From Allobosea sp. AAP35 (lineage in GTDB: Bacteria; Pseudomonadota; Alphaproteobacteria; Rhizobiales; Beijerinckiaceae), in contig NZ_LJHQ01000022.1 in assembly GCF_001295925.1 (NCBI RefSeq), forward strand, positions 1-64,000: 64,000 nucleotides of DNA, in the 5' to 3' direction. Shown here in pieces: positions 33,075 to 39,871 of the stretch. Each line of letters starts with the position of its first letter. Positions within the stretch are counted from its first letter, which is position 1. Under the pieces are notes generated by a model. It did no database searches and was not told the origin of the DNA. It was given only the letters and a program-made list of their open reading frames with translations. Made by a program: the position numbers and the translations under genes.

Positions 33075-33875
33075 TCACCAGCCGGCGAGCACGTTGCCCT
33101 TGAAGCGCTCGGCCACGAAGGCCTTGATCTCGGGCGACTGATAGGTCTCGACCAGCGTCTTCACCCAGGGCTTGTCCTTGTCGGCGGTGCGCACCGCGAT
33201 GACGTTCACGTAAGGCCCCTTGGGGTCCTCGCGCAGGATCGCCGAGGTCGGCTCGATCTTGGCGTCGACGGCGTAGTTGGTGTTGATCGCGGCTGCGGCG
33301 ACATCAGCCAGTGTGCGCGGGGTCTGCGCCGCCTCGACCTCGACGATCTTCAGCTTCTTGGGGTTGGAGACGATGTCGATCGGCCCCGGCTTGAAGCCAA
33401 CGCCGTCCTTCAGCTTGATCACGCCCTTGTCCTGCAGCAGCAGCAGCGCCCGGCCGCCATTGGTCGGGTCGTTCATGATCGCGATGGACGAACCGTCGGG
33501 CACCTCGGCCCAGCTCTTGTACTTCGACGAGTAGATGCCGAGCGGGAAGTTCACGGTCAGGCCGACGCTGACCAGCTTGAAGCCGCGATCCTTCACCTGG
33601 TTGTCGAGATAGGGCTGGTTCTGGAAGGAATTGGCCTCTAGTTCGCCGGCGTCCAGCGCCTGGTTGGGCACGACATAGTCGGAGAACTCGGTGATCTTGA
33701 GGTCGATGCCCTTCTTGGCCAGAAGCGGCTTCACCTGTTCGAGGATCTCGGCATGGGGGCCCGGCGAGACGCCGATGCGGACGATCTGCGGCGCCTGGGC
33801 GAGCGCGGGGACGGACAGGGCGAGCGCGGCAAGCGCCGTGGCGGCGAGCGCGGTGCGGCGGGTGATGATGGTCAT
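33075..33875 (-). CDS. metQ: Methionine ABC transporter substrate-binding protein
   Basis: This 266-residue NlpA/MetQ-family periplasmic protein binds methionine. The signal peptide ends at VPALAQ (about residue 27) without a lipobox cysteine, so it is probably soluble rather than a lipoprotein. The family core 'EFSDYVVPNQALDAGELEANSFQ' and 'IAIMNDPTNGGRALLLL' is intact. It lies downstream of metI on the same strand, separated by 178 bp containing a GTCAT-type repeat, and ends at a tandem terminator. Confidence 0.92.
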   Translation of the reverse strand: MTIITRRTALAATALAALALSVPALAQAPQIVRIGVSPGPHAEILEQVKPLLAKKGIDLKITEFSDYVVPNQALDAGELEANSFQNQPYLDNQVKDRGFKLVSVGLTVNFPLGIYSSKYKSWAEVPDGSSIAIMNDPTNGGRALLLLQDKGVIKLKDGVGFKPGPIDIVSNPKKLKIVEVEAAQTPRTLADVAAAAINTNYAVDAKIEPTSAILREDPKGPYVNVIAVRTADKDKPWVKTLVETYQSPEIKAFVAERFKGNVLAGW

Positions 33876-34053: not shown

Positions 34054-34734
34054 TCAGGCGTGGCGCAGGCGCTTGTTGAGCCGGCGGGCGAGATGGTCGC
34101 CGATGGTCTGGACTGTCTGGACCAGCACGATCAGCACGGCGACGACGGCGGCCATGACCTCGGGCATGAAGCGCTGATAGCCATAGCGGATGCCGAGATC
34201 GCCCAGGCCCCCGCCGCCGACCGCGCCGACCATGGCCGAGAAGCCGATCAGGCTGACGATGGCGAGCGTGAGACCCAGCGCGATCGCCGGTAGCGCCTCG
34301 GGCACCAGCACCTTGCGAACGATCTGCAGCGGCGTCGCGCCCATCGACCGGGCGGCCTCGACCAGCCCCTGATCGACCTCGCGGATGGCGCCCTCGATCA
34401 GCCTGGCGATAAAGGGCGTCGCCGCCACCGTCAGCGGCACGATCGCGGCATTGGTGCCGATCGAGGTGCCCGCAATGAGGCGGGTGAAGGGGATGATCGC
34501 GACGACGAGGATGATGAAGGGCGTCGAGCGCGTGGCGTTGACCAGCGTGCCGAGCAGCGTGTTGACGAGGGGCGCGGCAAACAATTCGCCGCGCTTGCTG
34601 GTGGCGAGAAAGACGCCGAGCGGCAGGCCGAGAACCGTGCCGAGCCCGGCGGCAACCGCCACCATCTGCAGCGTGTCGAGCGTGGCCTGCGCGATCAGCG
34701 CCACGATCTGGGGCGAGATGATCTCAGGAAACAT
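34054..34734 (-). CDS. metI: Methionine ABC transporter permease
   Basis: This 226-residue inner-membrane permease has five predicted helices and the ATPase-docking loop 'EAARSMGATPLQIVRKVLVPEALP' near residues 128-150, typical of MetI. It forms a homodimeric channel with MetN. Its first codons overlap the end of metN by 11 bp, indicating coupled translation. Confidence 0.93.
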   Translation of the reverse strand: MFPEIISPQIVALIAQATLDTLQMVAVAAGLGTVLGLPLGVFLATSKRGELFAAPLVNTLLGTLVNATRSTPFIILVVAIIPFTRLIAGTSIGTNAAIVPLTVAATPFIARLIEGAIREVDQGLVEAARSMGATPLQIVRKVLVPEALPAIALGLTLAIVSLIGFSAMVGAVGGGGLGDLGIRYGYQRFMPEVMAAVVAVLIVLVQTVQTIGDHLARRLNKRLRHA

Positions 34735-35833
34735 GGCCGATGACCTCCGCCTTGAGTTCGAGGCTGTTGAGCGCGCCGAGCACGGCAGCCAGTTCCGGCT
34801 CGCGCGTCGGGACCGAGACCAGCAGGCTGCCGAAGGGCTTGCCCGCGATGGCGTCGATGCGGCCGGCGAGGATGTTGACGTCGACGCCGATGGTCGAGCT
34901 GAGCCGGCTGATGACCGGCGCGGTGGCGTTCTGCCCGGTGAAGGTGATGCGCAGCACGGTGTCGTCGCCCGGCTGAGCGTCCTTGCGGATTCGGCCGGCG
35001 AGATAGGCCGGCAGCTCGACGCCGGTCACCGCCTCGACGAAGCGCGCCGTGGTCGGGTGCTGGGGACGCGTCAGCACCGAGAAGACGTCGCCCTCCTCGA
35101 CGATGCGGCCGTCCTCGATCACCGCGACGCGGTCGCAGATCTCCTTGATGACGGGAATCTCGTGGGTGATCAGCAGGATGGTGATGCCTAGATCGCGGTT
35201 GACCTGCTTCAGCAGGGCCAGGATCGACTTCGTCGTCTCGGGATCGAGCGCCGAGGTGGCCTCGTCGCAGAGCAGCACCTTGGGGTCTGTCGCCAAAGCG
35301 CGGGCGATGCCGACGCGCTGCTTCTGGCCGCCGGAGAGTTCGGCCGGGTAGCGCTCGCGCTTGTCGGCGAGACCGACCAGATCGAGCAGGCGCGCGACCT
35401 TGTCCTCGATCTGCAGTCTCGGCGTGCTCGCGATTTCCAGCGGCAGGGCGACATTGTCGAAGACCGTGCGCGAGGAGAGCAGGTTGAAGTGCTGGAAGAT
35501 CATGCCCGTGGCGCGGCGGCGGGCGCGCCAGCCGGCCTCGGTGAGTCCCGTGACGTCCTCACCCTCGATCAGGAGGCGGCCGGAGGTGGCGCGCTCCAGC
35601 CCGTTGACGAGGCGGATCAGCGTCGATTTGCCGGCACCCGAGCGGCCGATGACGCCGACGATCGCGCCCTTGGGCACGTCGAGATCAATGCCCGACAGGG
35701 CCGTGACCGACCCTTGCGCACCACGGGCGGCATAGGTCTTGCCGATCCGTTCGAAGCGGATGATCGGATCGGGCTGGTTCGGCGCTGGGCCGGGTTCGAC
35801 GCGGAAGGCGTCGGGCTTTGCAGGAGCGTTCAT
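34724..35833 (-). CDS. metN: Methionine ABC transporter ATP-binding protein
   Basis: This 369-residue ATPase shows Walker A GRSGAGKST, signature LSGGQKQR, Walker B VLLCDEATSALD and H-loop LLITHEIPV. A C-terminal NIL domain (about 285-365) follows, which in MetN binds methionine and inhibits transport when internal methionine is high. The ATG at 35833 lies 7 bp after the stop of a small ORF. Longer in-frame starts would overlap that ORF and were rejected. It is part of a leader-small ORF-metN-metI-metQ transcript. Confidence 0.94.
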   Translation of the reverse strand: MNAPAKPDAFRVEPGPAPNQPDPIIRFERIGKTYAARGAQGSVTALSGIDLDVPKGAIVGVIGRSGAGKSTLIRLVNGLERATSGRLLIEGEDVTGLTEAGWRARRRATGMIFQHFNLLSSRTVFDNVALPLEIASTPRLQIEDKVARLLDLVGLADKRERYPAELSGGQKQRVGIARALATDPKVLLCDEATSALDPETTKSILALLKQVNRDLGITILLITHEIPVIKEICDRVAVIEDGRIVEEGDVFSVLTRPQHPTTARFVEAVTGVELPAYLAGRIRKDAQPGDDTVLRITFTGQNATAPVISRLSSTIGVDVNILAGRIDAIAGKPFGSLLVSVPTREPELAAVLGALNSLELKAEVIGHVS

Positions 35834-35840
35834 GGTGACC

Positions 35841-36101
35841 TCAGGACGAAATCGGGGCGCGGCTGCGCCGGTGCGAAGCCAGCTGCCGGGCCGCGCGCTC
35901 GGCCGCGCCCGGCGTGGCGAAGCGATGGCCTTCGAGCGCGTCGAAGGCGGACGCGGCGGAAATGAAGGTGAAGACGCGCTCGCCGCCGCGACGGCTGACA
36001 AGGCCGGCCTGGGTCTCGCCGATCTCGATGACATAGGCCTGGTCACTGCGCAGCGGCAGGCCCTGATCGGGCCGGCCGGCGCCGGAGGAAAGAATGTTCA
36101 T
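35841..36101 (-). CDS. Small hypothetical protein upstream of metN
   Basis: This 86-residue protein has no recognised family. Its middle (about 20-60: 'AYVIEIGETQAGLVSRRGGERVFTFISAASAFDALEGHRF') reads like a compact beta-rich domain followed by a helix, and the ends are basic. It has a good ribosome site (GGGAGG) and its stop lies 7 bp before the metN ATG, so it is probably expressed with the transporter. The frame stays open upstream to a TGA at 36183. A short 21-codon ORF in the same frame ends at that TGA. Confidence 0.65.
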   Translation of the reverse strand: MNILSSGAGRPDQGLPLRSDQAYVIEIGETQAGLVSRRGGERVFTFISAASAFDALEGHRFATPGAAERAARQLASHRRSRAPISS

Positions 36102-36182: not shown

Positions 36183-36248
36183 TCAGAGTCGACAGCGACA
36201 GGCTGTGGGGCGGGACGGGAGGGCGCGGAATGGGGTGGCTTCGATCAT
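36183..36248 (-). CDS. 21-codon leader ORF behind the SAM-II-like element
   Basis: The ATG at 36248 follows CAGGAGACGACC, one of the strongest Shine-Dalgarno sequences in the window. The ORF encodes 21 residues ending in Cys-Arg-Cys-Arg-Leu. Its Shine-Dalgarno can be trapped in a hairpin directly below the predicted aptamer. After its TGA, a GCTCGC/GCGAGC hairpin is followed by GCCTCC, which can pair with the ribosome site (GGGAGGC) of the next gene. It looks like a regulatory leader peptide rather than a functional protein. No homologue is known to me. Confidence 0.45.
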   Translation of the reverse strand: MIEATPFRALPSRPTACRCRL

Positions 36249-36288
36249 GGTCGTCTCCTGTCGATTGGAGCCCACGACCGCGTCGTGG
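36246..36288 (-). promoter_or_regulatory. Predicted switchable hairpin controlling a Shine-Dalgarno
   Basis: Two mutually exclusive stems are seen on the minus strand. The first is CCACGAC-GCG-GTCGTGG (36272-36288), overlapping the tail of the aptamer. The second pairs GGTCGT+CTCC (36274-36279 and 36267-36270, GGG bulged) with GGAGACGACC (36249-36258), which hides the Shine-Dalgarno and stops right before the ATG. If ligand binding holds the aptamer tail, the second stem would be free to form and translation would be off. Confidence 0.6.
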
Positions 36289-36343
36289 CGCTTTAGCGTT
36301 TGGTGACGCGGCGCAAGCTGCTCGCTCAAATCCCCGCGGCCTT
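36284..36343 (-). ncRNA. SAM-II-like riboswitch aptamer, methionine transporter leader
   Basis: The minus strand shows the order of conserved SAM-II blocks: P1 5' strand CGCGG (36338-36334), GATTTGA (36332-36326), GCTTGC (36318-36313), P1 3' strand CCGCG (36311-36307), then AAACGCTAAAG (about 36301-36291). The P1 strands pair perfectly. SAM-II aptamers are known from Alphaproteobacteria upstream of methionine genes, and this one precedes metN-metI-metQ. The P2 pseudoknot is not convincing by eye (only 3-4 pairs), so this may be a variant. Confidence 0.6.
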
Positions 36344-36359
36344 TCGGCGTAGCCGAATG

Positions 36360-36514
36360 ACGAAGTCCAATGTGGCGGACGAAATCCTTTTTGTCAACGC
36401 GATCGTTCTTTTAAAGAAACGAAACTCGCAGGATTGCTCATCCCCGCACTGCCTTTGGCGGAGAAGGATCCTCCGGGTCGATGCGAAGCGGCCCATGACA
36501 GGCCGGCCCGCGCG
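36360..36514. promoter_or_regulatory. Divergent promoter region, methionine transporter and coaBC
   Basis: This AT-richer stretch contains CGATCGTTCTTTTAAAG at about 36401-36417 and lies between the SAM-II-like leader (minus) and coaBC (plus). Both transcripts must start here. A short TTCGGC/GCCGAA hairpin followed by ATGACG at 36343-36362 looks like a remnant of a GTCAT-family repeat. No specific operator was recognised. Confidence 0.4.

Positions 36515-38884: not shown

Positions 38885-39871
<987 letters not shown>

Follow-up and report, generated by a model that had tools for sequence, protein, structure and literature searches.

Does the methionine transporter operon of Allobosea sp. AAP35 stand under a SAM-II riboswitch, and if so, what does that riboswitch control? 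SAM-II was first described 5' of methionine genes and binds SAM while rejecting SAH (PMC1273637). In a regulon study based on Rfam profiles, metY was the core target of SAM_alpha, with metA, metX, metC, hom and metW as further targets; no transporter was included and metNIQ was absent (PMC4239095). We analysed a window of 64,000 nucleotides, that is, the whole stretch taken from contig NZ_LJHQ01000022.1, in which an initial annotation had placed a SAM-II-like aptamer ahead of metN-metI-metQ. All features of the window given below lie on the minus strand unless stated otherwise.

The SAM-II blocks do follow one another as that annotation had described: the P1 5' strand CGCGG (36334-36338), GATTTG of L1 (36327-36332), AGCTTGC (36313-36319, its GCTTGC at 36318-36313), the P1 3' strand CCGCG (36307-36311) and GCTAAAG (36291-36297). 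The two P1 strands pair perfectly around the middle blocks (36338-36334 with 36311-36307), and AUUUG, GCUUGC and GCUAAA have the order and spacing of the Rfam SAM-II family RF00521 (SAM_alpha). This family was the top Rfam match for the element, aligned over its full length at 36273-36347 with 28.2 bits and an E-value of 1.1e-4 in a permissive cmscan of 281 bases. The score above gathering that the initial annotation had proposed as a check was not reached, 28.2 bits being below the 36 of RF00521, a curated cut-off and not a biochemical property; the element is nevertheless real. Because of this shortfall it carries no Rfam annotation, and a scan of the window at gathering thresholds reported no match. 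The long-loop SAM-II family RF01726 gave 13.4 bits against a gathering score of 44. At loose E-values background RF00521 matches also appear in control genomes, and the weight of the case therefore lies on conservation and not on the Rfam score alone.

In the 4.46-Mb genome just one RF00521 match outscores the metN leader (E 4e-4). It is another SAM-II-like element, with 32.3 bits (locus L065 939-1016; G000:C73:17438-17515), located before an SsuA-like ABC substrate-binding protein. A third SAM-II-like element occurs in several Bosea genomes, about 3 kb from the SsuA-type one and before another gene.

RF00521 matches were present in 58 of 61 relatives, within the genus mostly under the cut-off, and nearly every Bosea genome examined has the element before metN. 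The core changes hardly or not at all among the approximately 30 Bosea metN leaders that were read, in contrast to the 5' flank and the sequence beyond the start codon, both of which vary freely. The compact core of this variant reads CGCGG-nATTTG-nnnn-AGCUUGC-n-CCGCG-UCACCAA-nn-GCUAAAGCG and is followed by a hairpin, P3 (CCACGnn...nnCGUGG). Across an alignment of 54 variant elements TTTG is invariant, and AGCTTGC and GCTAAA occur in all 54. P1 is paired in 100% of them, with one compensatory U-A; being nearly constant within the variant, it says little for or against its own pairing, and between subgroups its sequence varies with pairing kept. The P2 pseudoknot is as weak as had been noted by eye, with at most two or three G-C pairs (P2/P2a, GCG 36325-36323 with CGC 36290-36288) in a register that varies between lineages, so that it lacks independent support. 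Taken together, the comparison of sequences confirms a genuine divergent SAM-II-type aptamer, as the initial annotation had suspected, for which SAM would be the ligand.

The variant extends well beyond Bosea. A composite pattern, GCTAAAGCGCCACG-N-CGTGGGCTCC, was found in 19 of 397 genomes of the order, distributed over five genera, and in none when reversed; metN or a sulfur-type binding protein lies downstream in most of these loci. A covariance model built from the 19 composite sequences matched 72 of the 385 genomes drawn from Alphaproteobacteria, representing 49 of 277 genera, and, at family level, 46 of 149 genomes. The genes that follow are metN, metQ, SsuA-like and sulfate-binding proteins, a MetX-like hydrolase, metZ, cysG and a rhodanese; where the gene is metX-like or metZ, its own start can lie directly 3' of the element. 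In line with the initial annotation, metNIQ is missing from the published list of targets (PMC4239095), and the element is not confined to this locus. Wider relatives, many with GCGCC/GGGCGC stems, were found in alpha-, beta- and gammaproteobacteria before metY, metZ, metK, metH, metE, hom, cysH-like and SsuA-like genes, contexts that fit SAM as the signal; the search that retrieved them fixed the core letters and for this reason they were not used for covariation. Since some wider relatives precede NMT1-like proteins, an NMT1/xanthine riboswitch identity was suspected, and rejected: ten loci gave no Rfam NMT1 match and several match SAM_alpha.

The high conservation of core and P3 beside a reduced P2a, a SAM_alpha gathering score reached by only one of 20 fetched variant loci (L236), and the many targets that are sulfur importers and not methionine enzymes might also indicate that the SAM-II fold here binds another sulfur metabolite, such as SAH or a derivative of methionine or cysteine. 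We regard such a change of specificity as very unlikely, given that AUUUG, UUGC and GCUAAA are all kept, that relatives stand at metX and metZ, and that L236 does pass the SAM_alpha threshold.

Some loci merit mention in their own right. In a gammaproteobacterial MAG (L104 541-700) metN is preceded by a SAM-II-like element and, between the two, a terminator-like hairpin, whose loop GCTTTAGC is complementary to GCTAAAGC of the aptamer; judged by its sequence, this is a separate link between SAM-II and methionine import. Locus L283 has the composite element twice on the same strand (629-704 and 1501-1576), about 870 bases apart, a possible case of tandem regulation. SAM-II-like elements also precede a PAPS-reductase-domain (cysH-like) gene in L120 and in L179, the latter from a Kiloniellaceae MAG and with the classical type of P1 (CGTGG/CCACG). 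Three Bosea relatives (L056, L057 and L063) have an aptamer-P3-GCTCC-SD module before short ORFs without Cys and genes other than metN; L059 is an SsuA-type locus and L064 is not an element.

The region flanking the core is likewise organized. Read 5' to 3', it presents a near-palindrome, TTGACA, a -10-like hexamer, a hairpin that we call P0, P1, the conserved blocks, P3, CTCC, GGAG and ATG. The near-palindrome CGTTTCTTTAAAAGAACG (36404-36421) recurs before TTGACA in most Bosea metN leaders and is possibly a binding site for a transcription factor. The predicted promoter, a likely one, spans 36369-36397, with TTGACA at 36397-36392, a 17-base spacer and CACATT at 36374-36369; it was absent from the output of a strict sigma-70 scan. 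Every true Bosea metN leader that was read has TTGACA 54-63 bases 5' of P1, and in most a hexamer resembling (C/T)A(G/A)ATT comes after it.

P0 (36339-36361; GTCATTCGG / CCGAAAGGC) directly abuts P1. Over 26 Bosea leaders it forms on average 7.65 of nine pairs, compared with 6.55 +/- 0.15 when 3' arms were swapped between species (maximum 7.00; 0 of 2000 swaps reach the observed mean). P3, CCACGAC-GCG-GTCGTGG (36272-36288), belongs to the expression platform; 97.9% of its cells are paired among the 54 elements, with many double changes in the distal pairs. Over the whole structure there are 31 doubly changed cells (0 of 500 shuffles), in an alignment that had been fitted to the structure, and slid controls collapse. 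Pair-preserving change in the sequences thus supports both hairpins. The extent first assigned to the element, 36284-36343, accordingly includes the core and is too short on both sides, with P0 reaching 36361 and P3 and the proposed anti-Shine-Dalgarno (anti-SD) continuing down to 36267.

That anti-SD is CTCC (36267-36270), complementary to the Shine-Dalgarno (SD) GGAG at 36255-36258, itself conserved, and kept in P3-bearing Bosea leaders. In three Bosea loci (L060, L062 and L072) P3 and CTCC are both missing and the SD abuts GCTAAAGCG in the layout GCTAAAGCGGAG, which reads as a simpler, direct-occlusion arrangement; this joint loss fits CTCC as the partner of the SD. Folding predictions agree: with the aptamer locked, mean SD accessibility in 27 P3-bearing leaders (26 from Bosea and one other) went from 0.34 to 0.09, a drop of 0.253, compared with 0.021 +/- 0.030 for shuffled expression platforms (maximum 0.126 of 25), in a model without pseudoknots that represents P2 solely by blocking its strands. 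SAM-dependent masking of the leader SD is therefore likely in Bosea, as modelled. In 45 leaders of other lineages the drop was 0.022, against -0.003 +/- 0.026 in shuffles, with 13 loci outside Bosea going down and 10 up, so the platform mechanism, in its modelled form, is not general. A helix of AGCUUGCG with CGUGGGCU, present in the unconstrained fold of the leader in our window, was rejected as a general anti-sequestor because its mean pairing probability in other lineages is 0.04.

Which start codon does this SD serve? The first ORF after the aptamer is not metN but a leader ORF of 21 codons (36183-36248; MIEATPFRALPSRPTACRCRL followed by a stop), recognizable by its position, its near-constant length in Bosea and its codon enrichment. 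The metN start lies 415 bases 3' of the leader-ORF start, with an ORF of 86 aa in between. The link from SAM to methionine uptake proposed at the outset thus holds in so far as metNIQ lies downstream, and has to be modified in that the SD adjoining the element belongs to the short ORF. Bosea leader ORFs have mostly 21-22 and up to 26 codons; their N-terminal parts vary freely, and their C-termini are usually (C)CCRR or CRCR(R/L), for example CCCRR, GCCRR and CRCRL. At the composite-pattern loci, too, the next SD-preceded ATG is mostly the start of a short ORF, and clustered Cys codons are frequent in these ORFs. The arrangement also occurs in Labrys (Labrys okinawensis) and in further lineages, where the peptides, for example MIVVSGMDIEKPDGKMCCGCCCC and MTSHYCCP, are unrelated, and 33 of 38 short ORFs contain Cys, the rest having none.

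We counted codons in three sets (Bosea, an order set and a class/family set, the last two overlapping slightly), picking starts by SD and ATG only and ignoring content. In frame there were 70, 56 and 78 Cys codons, compared with 18, 20 and 27 expected from base shuffling (maxima 35, 38 and 42), and 29, 21 and 33 Met codons, compared with 4, 5 and 7 (maxima 12, 13 and 18). Both enrichments drop in the other two frames, and Trp codons showed none in the short leader ORFs of the three sets. Common descent links the sets, and two of them overlap slightly, so the counts do not represent independent events; the leader peptides are nonetheless very different between families. Our best reading of these sequences is a leader peptide with sulfur-amino-acid codons, which would be translated and would stall ribosomes. 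A scan for a second Cys leader elsewhere in the genome returned other TGYYGYTGYCGNCKNTGA matches, all without a suitable start with an SD, and none was retained.

Instead of encoding a leader peptide, the Cys-rich ORF could specify a small functional protein or simply result from a conserved RNA motif, TGTTGTCGACGCTGA. In favour of this, the last codons in Bosea are conserved as nucleotides too (TGT CGA); against it, outside Bosea the nucleotides differ and Cys richness persists (CCGCCCC, CCRRF, YCCP), and the N-terminal parts vary freely. We consider this explanation highly improbable. A plain SAM-II riboswitch that masks the first ribosome-binding site, with the short ORF as a translated entry point of irrelevant codon content, deserves somewhat more credit and is still unlikely. 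It accommodates the aptamer match and the gene contexts and has a precedent in Sinorhizobium meliloti metA, where SAM-II controls an SD with the product start 74 nt downstream (PMC9373788). It does not account for the strong in-frame enrichment of Cys and Met over unrelated peptides, and variant relatives at metX and metZ begin the gene directly, without a short ORF.

The operon behind the leader ORF begins with the small conserved ORF of 86 aa (35841-36101; QAYVIEIGETQAGLV...), found in 28 Bosea metN loci, with relatives in several genera. Its Pfam matches are all sub-threshold, no family exceeding its cut-off, and the names they offered were rejected accordingly. Profile matches identify the next three genes as the initial annotation had named them: metN (34724-35833), the transporter ATPase, whose top match is TIGR02314 (E 7.7e-118, yet under its own curated cut-off), with MetN of PDB 3dhw/3tui at E ~1e-99; metI, the permease (34054-34734; NF008049, 231.9 bits, cut-off 212); and metQ, a substrate-binding lipoprotein of the MetQ/NlpA family (33075-33875; TIGR00363, 233.6 bits, cut-off 228.85). 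Many Bosea have an additional ORF of about 60 aa, ending in ...HWSCHTHF, ahead of metN. A few genes away, past coaBC and on the plus strand, lies cysK (cysteine synthase A; 38885-39871).

From these elements we propose that the Bosea metNIQ leader is a two-input sulfur sensor that joins a SAM-II-type aptamer to a Cys/Met-codon leader peptide, a reading that we consider probable. With SAM plentiful, the P1/P2 fold would close over AUUUG, UUGC and GCUAAA, P3 would form, and the CUCC directly 3' of it would pair with the GGAG Shine-Dalgarno, leaving the leader ORF untranslated; the switch would thus work in the OFF direction. With SAM low, the leader ORF would be translated, and uncharged tRNA would slow ribosomes at its Cys codons and, in many species, at Met codons too. 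Such slowing may alter the fold or accessibility of the intergenic hairpins, and thereby the expression of both the 86-aa ORF and metNIQ. Hairpins are visible 3' of the leader-ORF stop, and no intrinsic terminator or terminator-like site was found between the leader ORF and the 86-aa ORF. Given these hairpins, the coupling to metN that we infer is suggested to be translational or Rho-linked.

With RF00521 the leader shares P1, the AUUUG/UUGC/GCUAAA order, a site just after the promoter and sulfur/methionine genes downstream. It differs in its 28.2 bits (below 36), very short P2a, transporter target and leader ORF, in an extra P3 with CCACG/CGUGG ends and, in Bosea, in the CUCC anti-SD. The Salmonella mgtA leader with MgtL likewise joins an RNA that senses a small ligand to a leader peptide whose codon content is read; its ligand, codons (Pro), genes and lineage are all different from those of the Bosea metN leader. 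In the metA leader of S. meliloti, SAM-II acts on translation at a distance, as described by Scheuer and others, controlling an SD apart from the real gene start; AUG1 and AUG2 of that leader share a frame and have a terminator between them, whereas here a separate short ORF with its own stop is followed by a second small ORF and metN (PMC9373788). Leaders with Cys codons were proposed before cysS in Rhodobacterales, where the uORFC-8-2 motif likewise contains a tandem-Cys short ORF in a structured leader, for which ribosome-mediated attenuation was proposed, as for the leader ORF here; unlike the Bosea metN leader, that motif lacks a SAM aptamer, has an intrinsic terminator at its end and targets cysS (PMC8632094). 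We found no paper combining a SAM-II aptamer with a Cys-codon leader in a search that left subscription papers and preprints mostly outside, so an earlier description is possible.

A methionine transporter adds to SAM-II a kind of target that was not assigned in the regulon study (PMC4239095), and the variant covariance model would annotate elements that the current Rfam model mostly misses. The position of the leader ORF also makes it possible to ask directly whether a single mRNA leader can unite a metabolite aptamer with the sensing of sulfur amino acids through codons. As the pair of aptamer and leader ORF recurs across many Alphaproteobacteria, sulfur uptake in these bacteria may read two signals at once; there is about an even chance that a widespread, largely unannotated alphaproteobacterial subclass of SAM-II controls sulfur uptake through a leader peptide, integrating SAM with the charging of tRNA-Cys and tRNA-Met.
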